Shown piece after piece: positions 14,912 through 27,631 of a stretch of DNA of 64,000 bases. A program made the translations under genes and the position numbers. The notes under the pieces were generated by a model. The model was given only the letters and a program-made list of their open reading frames with translations, made no database searches and was not told the origin of the DNA. How positions within the stretch are numbered: position 1 is the first letter of the stretch; each line of letters begins with the position of its first letter. Location of the stretch: the IMG/VR virus record IMGVR_UViG_3300028786_000006, positions 1 to 64,000 of that record; one strand, 5' to 3'. This DNA is from a virus.

Positions 14912-14946
14912 AGTATAACCCCAGAACTCAGGAAGTAAACTCTGGG
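14912..14946 (-). promoter_or_regulatory. promoter with -35 in hairpin loop
   Basis: TTTACT (14934-14939), 16-nt spacer, TATACT (14912-14917). CCCAGA/TCTGGG arms (14920-14925 / 14941-14946) enclose the -35, as in the 2772 and 3289 elements. Confidence 0.65.
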
Positions 14947-19134: not shown

Positions 19135-19737
19135 TTACACGTACGAGTTGATGATAGATGTTGCGTCGAGGATACCGCCGACACCTTGAGGGTGGAACTC
19201 GTGGCGGCCGTCAGGCATGCGCTTCAACGAACCGATGTGCACGGCGGTGTCGGCCGAGTAGTCTTGGGTCAGGTTGTATCGCTTCAGCACGTTGCCGGTT
19301 GCTTCGTCCATGACGTCGAAGTGTGCGTTCGAGATCATACCGAAGTTCTGCTTACGCTTGTCGGCCTCGAAGATGATCGCAAAGATTTCATGCGAGCCAC
19401 GGTCCGCAGGCAGGTCTTTGATCTTCGCCAGGAAGTGCTCAGGCAGCGCAGCCCCACCCTTCTTGTTATCGACCGGGACGCCCAGGGAATTGTTATCGTT
19501 CCACTTGTGCTTGAAGTACATCACGTGCTTGACGTCGTCGATGGTACCATCCAACGCGGTGGAGACCACGAAGATGTCAATGTCGAACTCGTAGCCGCCG
19601 GCCGTGCTGGAGGCCTTTGCGTCCCAGGTCAGTTGACCGCGCAGGGTGACCAGGTCAGGGGCTTCTTTTTCCAGGTCCAGAACCAGGGCCGGGTTACCTT
19701 TAACCAGATCGAGTACCAGTGGGGCTTTGGTGTTCAT
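19135..19737 (-). CDS. terD: TerD-family protein
   Basis: 200 aa; ATG at 19737 with GAGGAT upstream (an upstream in-frame TTG-type start is rejected). The N-terminus has the TerD tandem strands (PLVLDLVKGNPALVLDLEKEAPDL). Residues about 40-75 (YEFDIDIFVVST, DDVKHVMYF) and SLGVPVDNKKGG carry the acidic residues that bind calcium in TerD. Known TerD proteins are cytosolic, membrane-associated partners of TerC in tellurite resistance and stress response. Last gene of the phage ter operon. Confidence 0.85.
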   Translation of the reverse strand: MNTKAPLVLDLVKGNPALVLDLEKEAPDLVTLRGQLTWDAKASSTAGGYEFDIDIFVVSTALDGTIDDVKHVMYFKHKWNDNNSLGVPVDNKKGGAALPEHFLAKIKDLPADRGSHEIFAIIFEADKRKQNFGMISNAHFDVMDEATGNVLKRYNLTQDYSADTAVHIGSLKRMPDGRHEFHPQGVGGILDATSIINSYV

Positions 19738-19747
19738 AGGTGTATCC

Positions 19748-20791
19748 TCAAGCAATGGCGAGTTTATGTTCGCGACGGTTAACGATGGTGGAGTGAATGA
19801 ACGCGCCGCCGATGCAGAGTACGCTGACGGTGGCGATCAGCCATTCGGGTAAGTGGAACTGAACACCGATCATCATGGCCTGGGACAACGCCAGGATGGC
19901 GAGGAACGCGCCGTTTTCTAGGAAGCGGTAGGTCTCAAGGCTGCCGGTCTTGTCCATGTAGATGGTAAGGCAACGTACAGCCATCGCACCAACTGCCAGG
20001 CCGGCGGTAACCGCCCAGATGCTGTTACTGATTGCAAACGCAGCCACTACACCGTCAAAGCTGAACGAGGCGTCGAGCACTTCCAGATAGATGAACGTAC
20101 CCAGGCCACCGGCCAGTACCTTGAACCGGGTAGTCTTCATCCAGGTGTCGAGTTCTTCCAGGGAAGCCTTGGCGAATTCGACTGCGATGAACACGAGCAC
20201 ACCACCGACCGCCGCGTAGAAGAAGTTCGAACTACCGTTGAACGTGGAGTAAGCATAAGCGATACCGAGGACGATTAGGGCGTTGGCTTGTTCAAGCTTG
20301 CCGACCTGGATCACTTTGGCCAACCAATGCAATGGCACTTCCAAAGGTTTGAACCAGTGCATATCCTTCTCGTGGTTCACGAAGAAGTGCAGGGCGGCCA
20401 TCATCAAGAAGGCACCACCGGCGCCGGCTACGATGTCATGGGAGGACAGGAGTACCGCAGCGAACTGGTCAGGGTTACTGACAGCCAGTTGATACGCATC
20501 GACCAGGCCCATATTACCCAGCTGAGCAACGATCTCGAGCGGCAAGTAGAATCGCATGACCCCTACCGCGACGAACATACCGACCCACAGGAACATGGTC
20601 TTCCAGAAATGGTTCATTTCCTTCAGTTTGGCGGCGTTCATTACCGCGTTGTCGAAGCTGACCGAGATTTCGACGACGGTCAAGACCATGGCGGTGTACA
20701 GCAGCGCCAGGCTACCGGTAAAGAACCAGAGGAGGCTGTAGACCACCAGCGCGAAGATCAGCGTGACTCGGAAGTGTTTCAAGAGTTCCAT
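19748..20791 (-). CDS. DUF475/TerC-like integral membrane protein
   Basis: 347 aa with about nine hydrophobic segments. The paired acidic membrane motifs of the TerC superfamily are seen: VVEISVSFDNAVMNA (about 40-55) and LDASFSFDGVVAAF (about 247-260). This layout matches the DUF475 branch of TerC-like metal-handling membrane proteins. ATG at 20791 has AAGGAA upstream. Sits between the vWA gene and terD in one operon; it probably forms the membrane anchor of the Ter complex. Confidence 0.85.
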   Translation of the reverse strand: MELLKHFRVTLIFALVVYSLLWFFTGSLALLYTAMVLTVVEISVSFDNAVMNAAKLKEMNHFWKTMFLWVGMFVAVGVMRFYLPLEIVAQLGNMGLVDAYQLAVSNPDQFAAVLLSSHDIVAGAGGAFLMMAALHFFVNHEKDMHWFKPLEVPLHWLAKVIQVGKLEQANALIVLGIAYAYSTFNGSSNFFYAAVGGVLVFIAVEFAKASLEELDTWMKTTRFKVLAGGLGTFIYLEVLDASFSFDGVVAAFAISNSIWAVTAGLAVGAMAVRCLTIYMDKTGSLETYRFLENGAFLAILALSQAMMIGVQFHLPEWLIATVSVLCIGGAFIHSTIVNRREHKLAIA

Positions 20792-20831
20792 GGTACGTGT
20801 ATTCCTTGAAGTGTTGGCGAAAGCGCCGGGT

Positions 20832-21572
20832 TTAGCCGTTGATCCAGGAGGCGAACTTTTCGTTCGCCAGGAGCTCGAAGAAGTCCTCGTCCGACAGCAG
20901 GGTAGGCTGAGGGATGTGGATGAAGTGCATGTGCGGGTAATTCGCCGCGATGCGGGTCAGGTAGTTCAGGTTCACCTGGTTACCGATGGCGAAGAATTGG
21001 AAGAACGTGTCACCGGAGGTCTTTGCCATCTGGCGTTCGAATTCAGCCGGGTCCATGTTATCGCCGTCGGTGATAACACCAACATACGCACGGTATGGCG
21101 AGGTGCCTTCAGAGGTGGGTGTAGGCGCCGGGGCCTGGGCACCACCGAAAATGCGAGAGAGGAACCCAGCCTTCTTGACCGGTTCAGTAACAGCAGACGC
21201 CGATTGCACTTGACGGCTTTCGAAGTTCTGGATGATCGGACCGTAATGCGTACCGCCGCCCGGCCGGGTCATACCGTGCTTCGCCAGATACTTGCCAAGG
21301 TCAGACTTGGTGGCAGAAGGCGCTTCTTTCCACGTGGAACTGAAGAACCCGACGTCCAGGGTTTCGTTATCGTCGAAGGTTAGGGCCGCAGCCAGGAAGC
21401 GGTCGATGGTGCGCTGTACCAGCCCGCCTTCGTACTCTTCAGACATCGAGGTCGAGAAATCCAGCGCCAGGCGGGTTTCCATGGTAGGGATTTCAAGAAC
21501 CCCCGCTTTCGACAGGTCCAGGACGAGGGCGTCCCGGGCTTTGGTCAGGTCTAACACAAGTGGCGTGGACAT
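20832..21572 (-). CDS. TerF-like vWA-domain protein
   Basis: 246 aa. The N-terminus repeats LVLDL-x-K segments like those of the TerD protein. A von Willebrand A domain follows with an intact MIDAS: LDFSTSMS (DxSxS, about 36-43), the Thr of GGTHYGP (about 103) and VITDGDN (about 150). ATG at 21572 overlaps the telA stop (TGATG), so translation is coupled. In cellular ter loci such proteins act with TerC/TerD. Confidence 0.8.
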   Translation of the reverse strand: MSTPLVLDLTKARDALVLDLSKAGVLEIPTMETRLALDFSTSMSEEYEGGLVQRTIDRFLAAALTFDDNETLDVGFFSSTWKEAPSATKSDLGKYLAKHGMTRPGGGTHYGPIIQNFESRQVQSASAVTEPVKKAGFLSRIFGGAQAPAPTPTSEGTSPYRAYVGVITDGDNMDPAEFERQMAKTSGDTFFQFFAIGNQVNLNYLTRIAANYPHMHFIHIPQPTLLSDEDFFELLANEKFASWING

Positions 21573-22702
21573 CAAAGTGCTCCTTCAGCATTCAGGGCAG
21601 TCAGAAAGGCCTGTTGAGACTTCTCAACATCCTTCCAACCAATTTGTCGCTGGGTCTCGGCGGCCGAGTAGATTTCACGTACCTTGACTACCGCACCCAA
21701 CATCTTTTGACGCATGTGATTCATGGTTTCGTTGGTGATGGTCGGGGCAACCGTAGAGGCTGCTGATTCAACCATCACATCTGCAATCATGTCCGAGGTA
21801 CGGACCAGTGTTTCATTGCCAAGCTGGCGAGCCAGGTCAACCGCCTTGATCGAATCTTTACCGTCAAGGGCGGCGGCGTAGATGGCAAAATCCATCTTCA
21901 CGAACGGAATGACTTCTACCATAACTTCACGAAGGCTGGTAGCGCAACCCCGCAGAGCTTCTTGAATACCCATAATTTTTGGGCAGTTGAGCTCGGCCAG
22001 AGTTTTACCGCGCATCAGACCATCAAGTTTACCGCGCAGACGGCGCAGGCGGGTTTCAGCCTTGCGATACGCCTGGGTCTTCATGATGGCTTCTGGGTCG
22101 GTCGGGTCGATCACCGGCAGGTTGGTGATGGTGCGCTCCATGGAGGCAATCCACTGCTGGGTGCTCTGGATTTCCAGCATGGTCTGGTTGTAGACCCGGA
22201 AGTTGTCATCGTACACATCATCAAGGTCGTTTACCCAAGTTTCGGCGATGGCGATGTAGCCACTCATCTTCGTTTCCATGGCATCGAAGGACTCCTCGGC
22301 GGTACGGATTCGCTTCAGTACGGTGTGCTTGACATCGTAGATGCGGTTGGTGAGCCAGCCCAGGAGACCCTTGTTGATGATGGTAGCCGGGTCCAGACGG
22401 TCAGCCTGTAGTACCACATGCCCCAGAATGTCACCAAGCTCACCATAAGATGACGTGGCGCGTTGCTTGTTGATGTCGGTGAACTTGGTCGCCACCGTCT
22501 TCATCATTTGACCATTCTTCGTACCGATCTGGTCAATGTCCTCATCGGACACCGGTAGCAGGATCTCCTGTACGCCAACGGTGACCACGCTGCGGTTGCC
22601 CAGGGGGCTTGCCGGGCGTGCCATTACCGGCATCTCAGGAGGCGAGGCGAAGGGGCTCTGCGTTGCGACTGGGGTGGGTGTCCGGGACAATGGTGAAGTC
22701 AT
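21572..22702 (-). CDS. telA: TelA/toxic anion resistance family protein
   Basis: 376 aa. After a Pro-rich N-terminus (1-45), the long helical TelA-type body carries signatures such as KRIRTAEESFDAMETK, YRKAETRLRRLRGKLDGL and a C-terminal helical region. TelA proteins occur in tellurite-resistance loci and some envelope-stress or antibiotic-tolerance settings. First gene of the phage ter operon, with its own promoter (22741-22769) and a CTCACTAAG-type leader. Confidence 0.8.
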   Translation of the reverse strand: MTSPLSRTPTPVATQSPFASPPEMPVMARPASPLGNRSVVTVGVQEILLPVSDEDIDQIGTKNGQMMKTVATKFTDINKQRATSSYGELGDILGHVVLQADRLDPATIINKGLLGWLTNRIYDVKHTVLKRIRTAEESFDAMETKMSGYIAIAETWVNDLDDVYDDNFRVYNQTMLEIQSTQQWIASMERTITNLPVIDPTDPEAIMKTQAYRKAETRLRRLRGKLDGLMRGKTLAELNCPKIMGIQEALRGCATSLREVMVEVIPFVKMDFAIYAAALDGKDSIKAVDLARQLGNETLVRTSDMIADVMVESAASTVAPTITNETMNHMRQKMLGAVVKVREIYSAAETQRQIGWKDVEKSQQAFLTALNAEGAL

Positions 22703-22772: not shown

Positions 22773-24038
22773 TCAGGCGTCTTTTTGTGGCTCAATACGC
22801 TTGAATTTGGCGTAGCCGATTCGGGTCTCTTTGATGTCGTTGTACGTGGAGTGCTCCATGATACGGGCGGTTGCGTGGTATACGTCACCGGCTTCCGCGT
22901 TGCGCCAGTGGCCTTCTACTTCGTCGCCCAGGGCATTACCGGTCTTGGACACGAACAAGCGCCCGGCCTCATCCGTGAACTTGTAGAGGTATGTGCGACC
23001 CCAATCGCCGTCGAAGTATGTCTTGAACGTGAGCTCAAGGATGAGGTCTATCTTGTCCTTCACGGCGCCGTAGTGCTCGTTCAAAACAGGGCGCTTACCC
23101 TCCTGGGACTTCTTCATGTTCATGTACGAGCCCACGATCCAGAACGCGATAGACCTCCATGGGCGGCCGACGTACCCGTCACGGATATAGAGGCCCAGCT
23201 CCCGGTGGAACTCGTTACCGCCTTCGGCCTGGGCCTTGGACCAGTTGATAGCGTCCTGGACCACCAGGAGATCAGCGTCGGTGACCTTGTTGGCTAGGAT
23301 GTCAAACTTGTTGTACGGGGCTTTGGGGTTGGGGTGCTGATTGAACGCAATCGACATCCACTCAGAAGTTGGCATCCCCTTTTCGGTGTTGTTGCCCAGT
23401 GCCCATCCGTCATTCTGGTCAATGATGTACTTGGCCACGGTGAGATAGTCGACCAGATCTTCCACGCAGTCATCTGAGACATACCTGGCGCCGCCGAACT
23501 CAGATTCCAGGTCAGGCCCAAGGGACTTGAGCAGGGCCATGCTCAGGATGGTTTCAGGCGTGCCCCACCCAAGAAAGTCGGCCACGCAGCTGTTACCCAC
23601 AGCTTTCTCTTCACCCTCTTCGCTGCGGACCACGATCATCTTGTTGCGGAAGACCCGGCGGTTGCAGTGGTCGCACACCTGGGCCTTACGCGGGGCTAAC
23701 CGGGTCCGCATGCTCTCTGAGATTGGGGAGACAATCTTGAACTCCGCCTCGCTCTGCTGGCCGCTGTAATCAGCTACCGCCATCAATGTCCAGCCGTTTA
23801 CCTTGATATCGCGACCGATGAAAGTGCTCTCGATGGTGACAACAACCACCTCGATTTCCACCTCGATTAGTTGGGTCGGGTCGAAAAAGCTTTGAACTTC
23901 CAGGGTAACGAGAGACCGGGCGCCGAACGTGGCCTTCACATCGTCAATAATGCCATGCATCTTCTTGATACGCTTGTTCAGGAAGCGAACCTTCTCGTTG
24001 AACTCTTCGATGCGTGACACGTTGATCTTCAGTTCCAT
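22773..24038 (-). CDS. hypothetical zinc-finger protein, 421 aa
   Basis: The frame extends to 24125 but the ATG at 24038 (MELKINVS) is chosen because upstream codons overlap the terminator at 24082-24113. The N-terminus is coiled-coil-like; a CDHCNRRVFRNK motif (about 148-159) and GNSCVADFLGW (about 177-187) suggest a treble-clef type zinc site. The C-terminus ends RIEPQKDA. I recognise it only as a large phage/plasmid protein of unknown function. Confidence 0.65.
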   Translation of the reverse strand: MELKINVSRIEEFNEKVRFLNKRIKKMHGIIDDVKATFGARSLVTLEVQSFFDPTQLIEVEIEVVVVTIESTFIGRDIKVNGWTLMAVADYSGQQSEAEFKIVSPISESMRTRLAPRKAQVCDHCNRRVFRNKMIVVRSEEGEEKAVGNSCVADFLGWGTPETILSMALLKSLGPDLESEFGGARYVSDDCVEDLVDYLTVAKYIIDQNDGWALGNNTEKGMPTSEWMSIAFNQHPNPKAPYNKFDILANKVTDADLLVVQDAINWSKAQAEGGNEFHRELGLYIRDGYVGRPWRSIAFWIVGSYMNMKKSQEGKRPVLNEHYGAVKDKIDLILELTFKTYFDGDWGRTYLYKFTDEAGRLFVSKTGNALGDEVEGHWRNAEAGDVYHATARIMEHSTYNDIKETRIGYAKFKRIEPQKDA

Positions 24039-24081
24039 GACGGCGTCTCGGTTTGTCAGTATGTTGAACATAATAAAACAA

Positions 24082-24113
24082 AAAGTCCGCCCCGGCAACC
24101 CAGGGCGGACTTT
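24082..24113 (-). terminator. terminator after the 24122 gene
   Basis: AAAGTCCGCCC / GGGCGGACTTT perfect stem followed by TTGTTTTATT on the minus strand. Confidence 0.85.
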
Positions 24114-24121
24114 ATTTTGAA

Positions 24122-24598
24122 TCATTCGAACTCGTTGTATCGACGAACGCCCATGAAGTCCACCTGCTGCCCGGTATGCTGGACGGCCCAGGACAACGCA
24201 GAGAAGAAATACGGCTCATCCATCGCGGTGCCTTCCTTCATAAAGTCGCACACCAAGTCTTCGATATCGAACTCGTATACATGGCGCCGCGACACCACTC
24301 CGACATCTTCGTACTGCGACTCGTATTTGAAACCGAACGCCAGGAACTCATCGACTGGGCCAACCAGGCGGAACTGGATGCGGTGGTTGTCGCCGTACTG
24401 CTTGCGAAGAATTTCCTCCAGGTTGGTCTTGGTCAGGTCAACGAACAGGCAGTTGGCCGGGCGGCCGTCCATCCATACGGTGTACAGGGTCAAGATACTG
24501 GCCCGCTCCATACACTTGCGGGTTCGCATACGATCGGTGTGGACACCAAACCAACTCAGGAAGCGGTCAAACATGCCAGGGGTGCTGTTAGCTCTCAT
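24122..24598 (-). CDS. hypothetical protein, 158 aa
   Basis: Start at ATG 24598 overlaps the end of the upstream gene; an internal ATG at 24574 (MFDRFL) is an alternative. Acidic alpha/beta protein with no recognised domain (FVDLTKTNLEEILRK, VYEFDIEDLVCDF). Last gene of the long accessory operon read from about 26.9 kb. Confidence 0.6.
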   Translation of the reverse strand: MRANSTPGMFDRFLSWFGVHTDRMRTRKCMERASILTLYTVWMDGRPANCLFVDLTKTNLEEILRKQYGDNHRIQFRLVGPVDEFLAFGFKYESQYEDVGVVSRRHVYEFDIEDLVCDFMKEGTAMDEPYFFSALSWAVQHTGQQVDFMGVRRYNEFE

Positions 24599-24893
24599 CG
24601 GGTTGTAATACCAGTTCAGGGTTCGACTTCATCAGAAGCTCGAACGGTTCATGAAATTCGCGGGTCAATACACGACCGCTGCCTTCCGCCAATTGCTCTG
24701 CAGCATAGTACCCAATCATCGCCAGGCGCCGCAAGCTTTGAATCTCGGTCTCGCATTCAAGGAGGGCCGCAGCGGTGAGGTCAGTTTCGAACATCTTCTC
24801 GAGCTGGGTTTCGAGCTCTTTCACCCGAGCATCACGTTCTTTCAATTGCCCGATTAGTTCCGGGCGACCTACATCAAGTCTCAGCGGTTTCAC
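24588..24893 (-). CDS. hypothetical coiled-coil protein, 101 aa, GTG start
   Basis: GTG at 24893 overlaps the previous stop (GTGA) and has GGAG 8 nt upstream. Residues about 12-65 form a charged coiled coil (LKERDARVKELETQLEKM). Probably a small oligomeric partner of a neighbouring protein. No family recognised. Confidence 0.6.
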   Translation of the reverse strand: MKPLRLDVGRPELIGQLKERDARVKELETQLEKMFETDLTAAALLECETEIQSLRRLAMIGYYAAEQLAEGSGRVLTREFHEPFELLMKSNPELVLQPDES

Positions 24894-25522
24894 TTTTGAA
24901 TCTCCATCCAGTCAGTTACGATCTTTCGATCTTTTTCATGCCACAGGTTGAGGGTTGGGACCTCATTATCAATGGCGCATCGGTACGCGGTATTGGTGCC
25001 ACCCTTGACGAAGCCCCTGCCCTGTGGCTCGGCGAAGAACACCACCAGGTTGGAAGGAAATGCCAGGCTTTGGCCCAGTACCTGATAAATGTTGCGGGCG
25101 TGGAGCGCCTTGGACCAAGAATCCAGCTGGTCCCATACCGGGTGAATGTCAGCCGCCTCGAGCCTGGCGCCCAACCAGTTAGTCTGCCGTGGCCCTGAAA
25201 TGCAGTGGTGCCACGTCTCCGGGTCGTCATGCCGATACGTCTGTTCGGTGCGTATGCGGTGACCAGGTGGCGAAGTTTCAGATGGCATGAAGATCTTCAC
25301 CAATGGTGATGCCTGGGCGATCGTCATGGACTGTTCTTCGATGTACCGCCGGTAGCCGCTGTAGAACGCGTCATCACTACCGTGGGCATCACCACCACGA
25401 AACAACAGACCCATTCGGGCGGCCTCGTACCCAACGTCGAACATCAGACGCCAGATGTGGTCTGGTATGTTACGGGCACCAACGCCGGTGAGGATTTGGC
25501 CCTTGACCAGTTCAGATATCAT
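24890..25522 (-). CDS. SLOG/DprA-LOG-like nucleotide-binding protein, 210 aa
   Basis: Rossmann-like N-terminus ILTGVGARNIP (10-20) with RGGDAHGSD (42-50) is the pattern of DprA/Smf-LOG (SLOG) domains, which bind nucleotide-derived ligands or ssDNA; later FMPSETSPPG and FFAEPQGRGFVKGG complete the fold. ATG at 25522 follows the HD gene stop by 2 nt. Co-operonic with an HD hydrolase and a RyR protein, which suggests a nucleotide-signal role. Confidence 0.7.
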   Translation of the reverse strand: MISELVKGQILTGVGARNIPDHIWRLMFDVGYEAARMGLLFRGGDAHGSDDAFYSGYRRYIEEQSMTIAQASPLVKIFMPSETSPPGHRIRTEQTYRHDDPETWHHCISGPRQTNWLGARLEAADIHPVWDQLDSWSKALHARNIYQVLGQSLAFPSNLVVFFAEPQGRGFVKGGTNTAYRCAIDNEVPTLNLWHEKDRKIVTDWMEIQK

Positions 25523-25524
25523 GC

Positions 25525-26091
25525 TCAGTTATCCAGAAGGTCGATCATGCGAGGGTGCCAGCCGCGATAGTCCACGTCCAGGCGCTTTGCTGCCCGCATG
25601 ACCTGGTTAGCCGCCCGCTTCCACAGGGCTGAGTCACCACGCATCAGATACGGCAGGAGAAGGGCCTTCTCGGCGATGTATACCTTGGCGAACGCGGGGT
25701 CAGCCTCAGCGATGTCGCGGGTATTTGAAATCAGGTCACCCAGCTTAACATTTTGGGCTTCTCGCTCAGCATTGGCCAGGTGTCGTCGGTCTTTGGCTAC
25801 GCGGGCTTCGCGGTTGCCGTCGGCCGGCCTGGAGACGTCGGTAACCTGCAACACCAGGGAGACGGTACGCTTGGGGAACAGGAAGCGCATAAGCTGGCCC
25901 CAGAACCCGGCGTCTTCAACGACGTCATGTAACCAGCAGGCGGCCAGGGTATGCTTGCACTTGGTGACGCGCTTGACGATGTGGTACACCTCGGCCGGGT
26001 GATTGATGTACGGCACCCCGCTGTATTTTCGGCGGTGTCCGCAGGCCCAATGGGCGAAGGTGGCGTAGAACTTGGCGAAGGCTACAAGCAT
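25525..26091 (-). CDS. SpoT/MESH1-like HD-domain hydrolase, 188 aa
   Basis: HD signature residues are intact: His31 in INHP, LHDVVED (His55-Asp56, Glu59-Asp60) and VKLGDLISN (Asp119, Asn123). The HWACGHRRKYSGVPY start is that of the (p)ppGpp hydrolase/MESH1 branch, which removes pyrophosphate from ppGpp or phosphate from NADPH. A short stand-alone version, without synthetase or TGS domains. Could lower alarmone levels during infection; substrate unproven. Confidence 0.8.
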   Translation of the reverse strand: MLVAFAKFYATFAHWACGHRRKYSGVPYINHPAEVYHIVKRVTKCKHTLAACWLHDVVEDAGFWGQLMRFLFPKRTVSLVLQVTDVSRPADGNREARVAKDRRHLANAEREAQNVKLGDLISNTRDIAEADPAFAKVYIAEKALLLPYLMRGDSALWKRAANQVMRAAKRLDVDYRGWHPRMIDLLDN

Positions 26092-26093
26092 GG

Positions 26094-26297
26094 TCAGTCG
26101 CTCACGGTTACTACAGTGCAGACATCATCGTCGCACCGCAGGTTGGCGGTATAGTAGAGGGTTTCGACCCGGCAATAGCCGCTGTCAATACAGTCTACCG
26201 TGATAGGCACAAGGCCCTGGGTATTGAACATTTCGGTGACATGAGCATTGAGCTGAGCCACGGTCAAGGTTAGCGCAAGCGCCGCCCCGGTAATCAT
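26094..26297 (-). CDS. small exported Cys-containing protein, 67 aa
   Basis: ATG at 26297 overlaps the preceding stop (ATGA). The first 18 residues (MITGAALALTLTVAQLNA) look like a signal peptide; the rest has four Cys (DCIDSGYC, RCDDDVC), likely two disulfides in the periplasm. Function unknown. Confidence 0.6.
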   Translation of the reverse strand: MITGAALALTLTVAQLNAHVTEMFNTQGLVPITVDCIDSGYCRVETLYYTANLRCDDDVCTVVTVSD

Positions 26298-26863
26298 GCT
26301 TCGCCCCGAAGGATTTTGATCGCGTCCTTGATGTAAGTGCGAACATTGTCCGGGATCGTGAACGAGGTGCTGGCCAGCAACAGATTCAGGTACATGATGT
26401 GGGTCTCGATCCGGTCGTCGATTGTGCCCAGCGGTTTGTTATCCGGGTCCCAGGGGGTACAGAGGGGGTGCCCAAGGTCGATAACGAACGAATCTCGGGC
26501 GTTTGCCCGGTTGATCATGTCGGCGCAATCCGCACAGTAATGTTTGCGGGTCGAATGGTTGTACCAGGCGGCCCCCGGCTTCAAGCAGTCGCTGCGATTA
26601 CACAGACCGAACTTGGCACCCTTTTCATCGTTGAACTGGCCTTGGTCAACAACCAGGCGACAATCGAACGATGCTGGGAGAACAGCTTCAACCAGGTGAA
26701 TGCGAGAAAACGAACGCAAGTCACCAGGTTTACCCTGCTCAATCTCACGACCATTGACATAGTTGTCGTAGTCCTTGAGGGTTGCCAGCTCTGAATCAGC
26801 CACGAACACGAATGTCCCCTGGCCAAGATATTCAAACAGTTTTCCTTTGACGCCGATATCCAT
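26294..26863 (-). CDS. hypothetical protein with zinc-binding cluster, 189 aa
   Basis: ATG at 26863 (MDIGVKGK) with AGGAG upstream is chosen; the upstream extension to 26962 runs through promoter and terminator. A middle cluster (LCNRSDCLKPG, HYCADCADM, about 88-120) suggests a four-Cys zinc site. First gene after the 26891-26919 promoter, leading the HD/SLOG operon. Confidence 0.65.
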   Translation of the reverse strand: MDIGVKGKLFEYLGQGTFVFVADSELATLKDYDNYVNGREIEQGKPGDLRSFSRIHLVEAVLPASFDCRLVVDQGQFNDEKGAKFGLCNRSDCLKPGAAWYNHSTRKHYCADCADMINRANARDSFVIDLGHPLCTPWDPDNKPLGTIDDRIETHIMYLNLLLASTSFTIPDNVRTYIKDAIKILRGEA

Positions 26864-26890
26864 GACACTTCTCCTGCTCAATTTGGGTAA

Positions 26891-26919
26891 GCATACGCCC
26901 GCCCTGTTGTCAAGTAAAC
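26891..26919 (-). promoter_or_regulatory. sigma70-like promoter of the HD/SLOG operon
   Basis: TTTACT (26914-26919), 17-nt spacer, TATGCT (26891-26896); TTTGGG/CCCAAA arms lie on either side of the promoter. Confidence 0.65.
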
Positions 26920-26930
26920 CCCAAAGAAAA

Positions 26931-26954
26931 GGCCTGAGCTTTCGCCCAGGCCTC
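26931..26954 (-). terminator. terminator of the upstream RyR operon, GAAA loop
   Basis: AGGCCTGGGC-GAAA-GCTCAGGCCT hairpin followed by TTTCTTT on the minus strand. Confidence 0.8.
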
Positions 26955-26958
26955 GTGT

Positions 26959-27267
26959 TCAATTGCTGGCCTGAGCCTCACGGATCCGCGCAATGGTTGC
27001 CGGGTGCCCGTAGATGACGCCGTTGGCGAGGTATAAGGTTTCGCTAGGGCCGGCCACAGTGACCACCTTATGCGACTGGAGAGGACGCCATGGTAGGGTG
27101 AACAGGCGTTCAATCAGACCGCGCCGTTTCTTTTCTTGCTTCTCGGCCTGAAGGAACGGCGCGTCCGCCAACTTGAACCCGATGTATGACCGACCGGCGA
27201 TCATTTCATCGAGGGTTTTAAGCGGGAGTTTGTTCAAGATGAGCACTCTCTTTGGCGCTCTGCTCAT
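26959..27267 (-). CDS. hypothetical protein, 102 aa
   Basis: Basic protein with a central Lys/Arg run (QEKKRRGLIERLF) and C-terminal YLANGVIYGHPATIARIREAQ. ATG at 27267 lacks a clear SD but the gene overlaps the RyR gene by 50 nt, so translation may be coupled. No family recognised. Confidence 0.5.
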   Translation of the reverse strand: MSRAPKRVLILNKLPLKTLDEMIAGRSYIGFKLADAPFLQAEKQEKKRRGLIERLFTLPWRPLQSHKVVTVAGPSETLYLANGVIYGHPATIARIREAQASN

Positions 27268-27631
27268 CTTGTAGGCAGGCGGCGCGGTACAGGGGGGCCA
27301 TGGCGATGACCGTGTTCTTGAACATGGTATCCTTCATGCGTTGGGTCAGCGGCAGGGCCTGGTACGGCACCAGGTTAGGGTGCTCCCGCAGCTCTTCACT
27401 TTTCACTGGGCCGCGACACCAACCTTCAGACAACTTCGTTTCGCACCAGAGGTCATGCTGGGCGGCGGCCGGCGCCATTGGGTTCTTCAATCGGAACTGG
27501 ACGCCGGTACAGTAGCCGTCACGGACAGCTTGCGGGGCTTCCGACCATTCTGGTGGCACCGCATCATGCGTGACCTGGCAAAACACCCGGTTGGTTTCGT
27601 AACAGATGCGTGCGATGGACTCTACGTTCAA
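27218..27631 (-). CDS. RyR-domain protein, 137 aa, TTG start
   Basis: The TTG at 27631 with AAGGAA upstream is the only plausible start. Residues about 55-110 (HDLWCETKLSEGWCRGPVK, HPNLVPYQALPL) match the RyR repeat domain. Prokaryotic RyR domains are found in phages and conflict systems and are thought to sense nucleotide-like ligands. Nearby on the same strand are the SLOG and HD genes. Confidence 0.75.
   Translation of the reverse strand: MNVESIARICYETNRVFCQVTHDAVPPEWSEAPQAVRDGYCTGVQFRLKNPMAPAAAQHDLWCETKLSEGWCRGPVKSEELREHPNLVPYQALPLTQRMKDTMFKNTVIAMAPLYRAACLQDEQSAKESAHLEQTPA

Follow-up and report, generated by a model that had tools for sequence, protein, structure and literature searches.

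A phage locus with two adjacent predicted transcription units, one for a RyDEP-type RyR protein and one for a small alarmone hydrolase and a SLOG protein

A 162-kb myovirus, kin of Pseudomonas phage Cygsa01, its sole close relative, carries a locus that is best read as two adjacent transcription units: one would supply an anti-Thoeris protein of the RyDEP type, and the other a small alarmone hydrolase (SAH) paired with a SLOG protein and directed against alarmone-type signals or toxSAS damage. The probability given to this reading is about 0.55, and under it three small proteins probably soak up or destroy bacterial anti-virus alarm molecules. The window is the whole stretch analysed, 64,000 nucleotides of IMG/VR record IMGVR_UViG_3300028786_000006. 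The five genes named in a preliminary description lie at 24890-27631 on the minus strand, with family assignments far above chance, and the synteny of the locus, gene order included, is kept in Cygsa01. The second unit extends beyond the named genes to 24122 through two more conserved genes, and its order is zinc protein, Cys protein, SAH, SLOG, coiled-coil protein and 158-aa protein. The features are as follows.

27218-27631, minus strand: RyR-domain (PF02026) protein of the RyDEP family, 137 aa, with a TTG start after AAGGA
26959-27267, minus strand: 102-aa ORF between the RyR and zinc genes, overlapping the 3′ end of the RyR gene by 50 bases
26929-26954, minus strand: predicted intrinsic terminator closing the RyR transcription unit (-21.4 kcal/mol, z -4.9)
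26890-26918, minus strand: predicted promoter TTTACT-N17-TATGCT of the Zn-Cys-SAH-SLOG unit, conserved in Cygsa01
26294-26863, minus strand: zinc-cluster protein, 189 aa, CX4C-X16-CX2C, belonging to the SAH-SLOG unit
26094-26297, minus strand: four-Cys protein, 67 aa, CX5C...CX4C, with ATGA translational coupling to the zinc gene
25525-26091, minus strand: small alarmone hydrolase consisting of a stand-alone HD_4 domain, 188 aa, with all catalytic residues in place
24890-25522, minus strand: phage-type SLOG (DprA-like) protein of 210 aa; its start lies 2 nt past the SAH stop codon
24588-24893, minus strand: coiled-coil-like protein of the SAH-SLOG unit, 101 aa (Cygsa01 counterpart 43%)
24122-24598, minus strand: 158-aa protein, final gene of the SAH-SLOG unit (Cygsa01 counterpart 31%)
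24082-24113, minus strand: predicted intrinsic terminator closing the SAH-SLOG unit (-27.2 kcal/mol, z -6.6)

The HD gene encodes, judged by its sequence, an intact small alarmone hydrolase with the features of the SAH of Salmonella phage SSU5, in agreement with the preliminary description of a stand-alone HD hydrolase with intact catalytic residues. HD_4, the only domain in the protein, was matched at 37.7 bits (Pfam cut-off 27.2, E=2.2e-9), TIGR00691 (spoT_relA) was matched at 2.6e-12 with the HD part covered, and the PDB matches were RelSeq (1vj7) and MESH1 (3nqw/3nr1/5vxa). The full RSH residue set is present: R21, H31, H55-D56, E59-D60, D119 and N123 are invariant in 13 aligned proteins, and the RSH hydrolase motif set was found in 97 of 101 strong SAH matches. 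A tail motif, KxxDxxxN-x7-DxxFxxxYxxE, is common to the window protein and PaSpo, the SAH of SSU5. PaSpo neutralises toxSAS toxins, FaRel2 among them, serves to tame CapRel and acts on alarmone or toxSAS products (PMC11559606, PMC9712102). Like PaSpo, the window SAH would take off the 3′-pyrophosphate from (p)ppGpp or (p)ppApp, from toxSAS-modified tRNA ends, or from both. The alarmone synthetase domain PF04607 is absent throughout the phage record; the SAH therefore has no synthetase partner of its own, and a role as antitoxin to a phage-encoded synthetase was rejected.

The gene directly downstream was said to encode a SLOG-type Rossmann protein, and this identity stands. The protein matches phrog_768 (SLOG/DprA-like) with E=3.4e-46. 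Its AlphaFold model is confident (AF2 pLDDT 89.8, pTM 0.88) and bears out the SLOG fold, for which structure prediction had been proposed as a check. DprA was the best Foldseek match of the model (2.7e-4), followed by ShosA, EcThsA and the SLOG-3′cADPR structure of BcThsA, with YpsA and LOG also found. The protein is a putative Rossmann nucleotide binder that distantly resembles PpnN, a nucleosidase regulated by ppGpp, in structure. The invariant residues are G15, R17, G44, D50, H141, R143, N144, Q147 and G174-G175-T176, and the phage SLOG family has the motif LHxRNxxQxLG. NCBIfam gave no SLOG match, a sequence search of the PDB returned only p53 noise, and a relative (L255) scored 28.2 bits against the Pfam DprA model (PF02481, DNA_processg_A), below the cut-off of 29.6. 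A scan of viral contigs yielded 0 matches with a single-sequence query and gave matches with an alignment query, and phage DprA-like SLOG proteins were matched in 919 records of sequenced phages; for the SAH the number of phage records is 185.

Genes for SLOG and SAH are linked in several unrelated phages, above chance under a uniform null. They lie within 2.2 kb of each other in 4 of 10 other independent phage lineages that have both, where 0.39 would be expected (P=3.7e-4) under uniform gene placement, a null from which real genomes depart in that accessory genes cluster. Macro- or NADAR-like ORFs also adjoin in two of the four. In L205 and L235 the HD domain is matched weakly, with scores under the Pfam cut-off, and in phiKZ and Psa21 no SLOG gene lies within 10 kb of the SAH gene. 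Because SLOG and SAH recur as neighbours in unrelated phages, the SLOG protein probably binds or processes a nucleotide related to the SAH substrate.

A possible, though doubtful, alternative is that this part of the locus serves host take-over: the SAH would lower ppGpp so that host transcription and nucleotide synthesis continue, the SLOG protein would bind ssDNA and assist recombination in the manner of DprA, and the neighbours would be unrelated cargo in a dense early region. DprA is the nearest solved fold to the SLOG model, and in many other phages the SLOG gene lies beside replication or dNTP genes (helicases, RNR, dCMP and dCTP deaminases, ligase), which fits a DNA role. DprA/Smf has been suggested as an additional ssDNA-binding protein (PMC7824862), and the SAH of a Pseudomonas phage has been read as metabolic reprogramming (PMC12846349). 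However, the Pfam DprA model gives no match to this protein at any E up to 1, the LHxRNxxQxLG motif and the association with Macro-/NADAR-like and SAH genes suggest a nucleotide role, and a ppGpp-only role leaves the SLOG linkage unexplained. A sharper form of the counter-defence reading, in which SLOG and SAH are a recurrent two-protein pair of large phages against one class of hyperphosphorylated nucleotide or toxSAS damage, is itself unlikely; the SAH would strip the 3′-pyrophosphate and the SLOG protein would capture or cleave the same or the resulting nucleotide. If true, the phage would have two counter-signal arms, this pair and the anti-Thoeris protein of the RyDEP type.

The other component of the preferred two-unit reading is the RyR-domain protein, whose assignment was upheld by a match to PF02026 at 39.8 bits (Pfam cut-off 27.4), with no RyR match in NCBIfam. 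RyDEP, the RyR-domain defence evasion protein of phage DyoEdafos (gp78, PDB 35TM), cleaves or sequesters the Thoeris signals 2′/3′cADPR (PMC13232231, May 2026), and its homologues, of diverse phage origin, block Thoeris and either bind or cleave cADPR (PMC13232231). The window protein matches 35TM with E=1.4e-9, and its H59, W62, H84 and D101 are spaced as H75, W78, H100 and D117 of RyDEP (+3, +25, +42), a correspondence drawn from the spacing and from the alignment end-points with 35TM; this spacing is exact in 88 of 89 family matches. Its AF2 model (pLDDT 93.6) has as top Foldseek matches the R12 domains of ryanodine receptors (6uhi, BtRyR and human RyR3 R12); 35TM is not among the matches listed, and the fold library predates PMC13232231. 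On the preferred reading, the protein most likely binds 2′/3′cADPR made by Thoeris TIR proteins, so that the signal does not reach the effector; a possible but less probable alternative is that H59 and D101 serve to cleave its ribose-ribose bond. Two observations count against an anti-Thoeris function. The protein has lost near-invariant N-terminal residues of the family (H11 to Y, G22 to H, W35 to A, Q36 to V, S39 to G), of which H11, W35, Q36 and S39 lie outside the published definition of RyDEP, and among eight homologues tested two formed no stable signal complex and none cleaved the signals (PMC13232231). NARP1/NAD+ salvage or other ADPR-processing partners such as those of DyoEdafos were rejected, since no NAPRTase/NAMPT, NUDIX, NADAR or Macro genes were found in the phage. 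No TIR partner was found with PF01582, in a weak test whose control matched just 1 of 14 genomes, and the PADLOC defence-library search gave zero matches.

The preliminary description had joined the RyR, SLOG, HD, Cys and zinc genes in a single module, itself grouped with the adjacent ter operon and taken to sense, sequester or degrade nucleotide signals. This single system is very improbable, even though all of the genes fit into 9 kb of a single strand and their order is kept in Cygsa01. The terminator at 26954-26929 and the conserved promoter at 26918-26890 split the RyR gene from the other four, which places it in a separate predicted transcription unit, not in one operon with them; a strong terminator also lies between the RyR and zinc genes of Cygsa01 (L002 23294-23270). 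Both promoter hexamers and the 17-nt spacing are identical in the two phages, with agreement at only 17 of the 29 positions in total, and related TTTACW-N-TATRCT motifs precede four other genes in the phage. At the other end, the terminator at 24082-24113 precedes a 450-aa gene and the ter genes, assigning the latter to a predicted unit of their own, and Cygsa01 has a similar stem at the equivalent place (L002 19874-19839). Co-occurrence in relatives, the test named beforehand, was found for the SLOG-HD pair and not for the RyR gene. All three occur together only in the window phage and Cygsa01 among the phages surveyed; outside Cygsa01, 0 of 49 RyR-bearing phages have SLOG and two have an SAH, RyR is found in only two of the 50 phages with SLOG, and SAH-SLOG is found without a neighbouring RyR in 201phi2-1 and others. 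What survives of the nucleotide-signal idea is that the RyR and HD families have demonstrated activity on ADPR signals and on alarmones or toxSAS products, respectively.

The smaller genes needed some revision. The zinc-cluster gene is supported by phrog_13772 (E=1.9e-9), by a Cygsa01 homologue of 37% identity and by conserved cysteines (C88, C93, C110 and C113, equivalent to C91, C96, C113 and C116 of Cygsa01), but its start is most likely the ATG at 26863, behind AGGAGAA and in agreement with the Cygsa01 homologue, and not the TTG at 26962 inside the terminator that had been proposed. The 67-aa Cys protein has a 71-aa homologue at the equivalent place in Cygsa01; its hydrophobic N-terminus accords with the earlier label 'exported', but the first 20 residues contain no basic residue, and export is uncertain. 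The 102-aa ORF, with no Cygsa01 homologue and no Pfam or PHROG match, is probably accessory. Least likely of all is superinfection exclusion or inter-phage conflict, in which the Zn/Cys and ter proteins would alter the envelope and SAH-SLOG would shield the infected cell, with host immunity not the target: phage ter operons have been proposed for superinfection control (PMC7824862) and the ter genes adjoin the SAH-SLOG unit, but this unit has no evident surface or membrane protein, the doubtful Cys protein aside, ter is in a separate predicted unit, and the other SAH-SLOG neighbourhoods examined have no annotated ter genes.

The phrase 'undescribed system', as first put forward, overstates the case. 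HD-alarmone hydrolases and SLOG proteins were predicted as phage counter-nucleotide proteins by Aravind and colleagues in 2021-22 (PMC7824862, PMC9503650), with RyDEP demonstrated in 2026; the term 'RyR' is absent from the two earlier texts. Each component is thus of a known or predicted kind, and it is the SLOG-SAH pairing for which no description was found in the literature, the available parts of PMC7824862 and PMC9503650 mentioning no recurrent pair. For the phage DprA-like SLOG proteins, present in hundreds of sequenced phages, no demonstrated function was found in the literature, and the recurring partnership with an alarmone hydrolase provides a concrete, testable hypothesis on the SLOG ligand. 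The RyDEP anti-Thoeris family also gains a divergent Pseudomonas-phage member from this locus, which suggests that a single phage may stack counter-measures against two different signal classes.

Compared with known systems, the RyR protein shares with RyDEP the PF02026 fold, the identically spaced ligand and catalytic His/Trp/His/Asp residues and the small size of a phage protein; unlike RyDEP, it is without the near-invariant N-terminal residues, has no NARP1 neighbours and belongs to a phage with no NAMPT family. The counter-nucleotide/NAD+ networks of large phages described by Iyer, Burroughs and Aravind (PMC7824862, PMC9503650) are likewise predicted to set HD-alarmone hydrolases and SLOG against host nucleotide signals, whereas SLOG is combined there with Macro, NADAR and Nudix. 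The SLOG domain of the Thoeris effector ThsA, a 3′cADPR binder, has the same fold (Foldseek 7uxs, prob 1.00), but the window protein is 10% identical to it and stands alone, with no NADase domain. The phage SAHs (SSU5 PaSpo, phiKZ gp246 and 201phi2-1 gp325) have the same stand-alone HD_4 domain and R/H/HD/ED/D/N catalytic set, and 201phi2-1 gp325 joins PaSpo in the tail motif; the window SAH differs in being 37.7% identical to that of SSU5 and in a gene that directly adjoins the SLOG gene. Finally, the phage DprA-like SLOG proteins (phrog_768; the 44RR ORF049c and phi92 gp047 families) agree with the window protein in sequence family, fold and invariant residues, whereas the window and Cygsa01 proteins diverge as a branch of their own, with an extended insert of low confidence (around residues 80-105) and an SAH partner directly upstream.

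The virus record comprises 162,341 bases, the first 64 kb being the window, and the closest annotated relative of its phage is Pseudomonas phage Cygsa01 (PP179332), with which it shares T4-type polymerase and SSB genes. Cygsa01 also keeps the gene order, with genes for a DprA-like protein, an HD protein, a four-Cys protein and a Zn protein, then two other genes and a RyR gene. The window genes are located as follows:

24890-25522, (-) strand, SLOG protein (DprA-like)
25525-26091, (-) strand, HD protein (small alarmone hydrolase, SAH)
26094-26297, (-) strand, Cys protein
26294-26863, (-) strand, Zn protein; ATG at 26863 with AGGAGAA, in agreement with the Cygsa01 start
26959-27267, (-) strand, 102-aa ORF
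27218-27631, (-) strand, RyR protein

A strong predicted terminator (26954-26929; -21.4 kcal/mol, z -4.9) lies at the end of the RyR unit, and behind it stands a predicted promoter motif, TTTACT-N17-TATGCT, whose hexamers and spacer length are identical in Cygsa01 despite divergence of the spacer sequence; similar motifs lie ahead of four other genes in the phage. A TTG at 26962 was rejected as the start of the Zn gene, since it adjoins the terminator that the gene would need to cross. The predicted SAH-SLOG unit contains the Zn, Cys, SAH, SLOG, 101-aa and 158-aa genes, each with a Cygsa01 homologue, and ends at a second predicted terminator (24113-24082; -27.2 kcal/mol, z -6.6), past which lie the ter genes. 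Because shuffled sequence yields the same overall number of terminator-like sites, the case rests on the energies of these two terminators and on their positions, which are matched in Cygsa01. As terminators and promoter divide RyR, SAH-SLOG and ter, at least three units are predicted across the five genes and ter.

Promoter-like motifs TTTACW-N16/17-TATACT, similar to the SAH-SLOG promoter, precede genes at window positions 14939(-) and 662(-) and, on two further stretches of the phage, at L265:13048(+) and L266:7901(+); at three of these four genes an (A)CCACTGAGG leader lies ahead of the start codon. The ter set (19135-22702) is abbreviated to TerD, TerC/DUF475, vWA and TelA, in an order retained in Cygsa01, and TelA has relatives in phages of Pseudomonas, Rhizobium and Caulobacter. 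Between it and the SAH-SLOG unit, a 450-aa gene (22773-24125) has 74% identity in Cygsa01, far better conserved than the adjoining genes, and gave no match in PADLOC and NCBIfam searches.

Among 50 SLOG-bearing virus records, an HD_4-type match was found in 14 and RyR in 2, and among 50 RyR-bearing records (Cygsa01 included) SLOG was found in 1, Cygsa01 itself, and HD in 3. The triple is thus confined, among the records searched, to this phage and Cygsa01, and RyR is linked to neither partner. SLOG and HD, in turn, are linked: they lie at most 2.2 kb apart in four of the ten lineages that carry both, the window/Cygsa01 clade being left out and lineages being grouped by record size and similarity, without a tree (0.39 expected under a null of uniform placement; P=3.7e-4). 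These four lineages are 201phi2-1/L255, L260/L261, L235 and L205, the HD scores being weak in the last two. The link is qualified by the uniform null, by these weak scores and by two further results: a scan of HD-bearing records, mostly small environmental contigs, found SLOG in only 2, and no SLOG was found within 10 kb of the SAH in the counter-examples phiKZ and Psa21.

Two of these four neighbourhoods carry further ORFs, the Macro-like and NADAR-like ones being assigned by inspecting sequences. In a 67-kb virus contig (L235:9294-10945), HD, SLOG, a Macro-like ORF and then an adenylosuccinate-synthetase-like ORF form what looks like a compact nucleotide-signal cassette. In a 140-kb contig (L205:9519-11945), a NADAR-like ORF overlaps SLOG, and an HD-like gene follows 0.9 kb downstream. 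The only other RyR-SLOG neighbourhood seen was in a 148-kb virus contig (L230:5581-10489), where RyDEP-type RyR and SLOG genes lie 4 kb apart.

The SLOG protein matches phrog_768 at 3.4e-46 and has relatives in 919 phage records. Its AF2 model (pLDDT 89.8, pTM 0.88) matches DprA, ShosA, EcThsA and the 3'cADPR-bound SLOG domain of BcThsA; weaker matches are YpsA, LOG proteins and the ppGpp form of PpnN. Among the invariant polar residues are R17, D50, H141, R143, N144 and Q147. Published accounts include the placement of most viral SLOG proteins in a YpsA-like clade predicted to sense or degrade cADPR-type signals (PMC9503650) and, for DprA-like ones, a proposal of ssDNA binding (PMC7824862). 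The HD protein matches HD_4 above cut-off, has RelSeq and MESH1 as its best solved relatives and retains the complete RSH hydrolase residue set; an alarmone synthetase domain is absent from the protein and from the phage record searched. It shares the tail KxxDxxxN-x7-DxxFxxxYxxE, present in 95 of 101 strong HD matches, with PaSpo, the SAH of phage SSU5, which removes the tRNA modification made by the toxSAS FaRel2 and has been used to tolerate CapRel (PMC11559606; PMC9712102). An SAH of a Pseudomonas phage has also been discussed (PMC12846349), and a 2021 paper contains the prediction that jumbo-phage HD-alarmone hydrolases are counter-nucleotide enzymes (PMC7824862).

The RyR protein matches PF02026 above cut-off and, at E=1.4e-9, RyDEP (PDB 35TM), a phage hydrolase of 2'cADPR and 3'cADPR with the dyad H75/D117 and the ligand residues W78 and H100 (PMC13232231). 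H59, W62, H84 and D101 of the window protein reproduce the RyDEP spacing (+3, +25, +42), as do 88 of 89 RyR family matches, and the confident AF2 model (pLDDT 93.6) has RyR R12 domains as its best PDB matches. It is fairly likely that the protein binds cADPR. Six of eight RyDEP homologues tested bound 2'cADPR/3'cADPR and none of the eight cleaved them, relief of Thoeris being shown for two of the binders (PMC13232231). The near-invariant N-terminal H11, W35, Q36 and S39 of the RyDEP family are replaced here, which lowers certainty, and sequestration of cADPR rather than cleavage is therefore expected.

In conclusion, the preliminary description, which joined all five genes with the ter operon in one possible counter-defence module, holds in that the genes are real and its general direction, nucleotide counter-signalling, is probably right, but the single system is predicted to split into a putative anti-Thoeris gene of the RyDEP type and, apart from it, an SAH-SLOG unit. 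What merits following up is the recurrent pairing of SLOG with SAH. The suggestion that the system was undescribed gives way to a set in which each kind of component was known or predicted before: RyDEP, the PaSpo-type SAH and phage SLOG.
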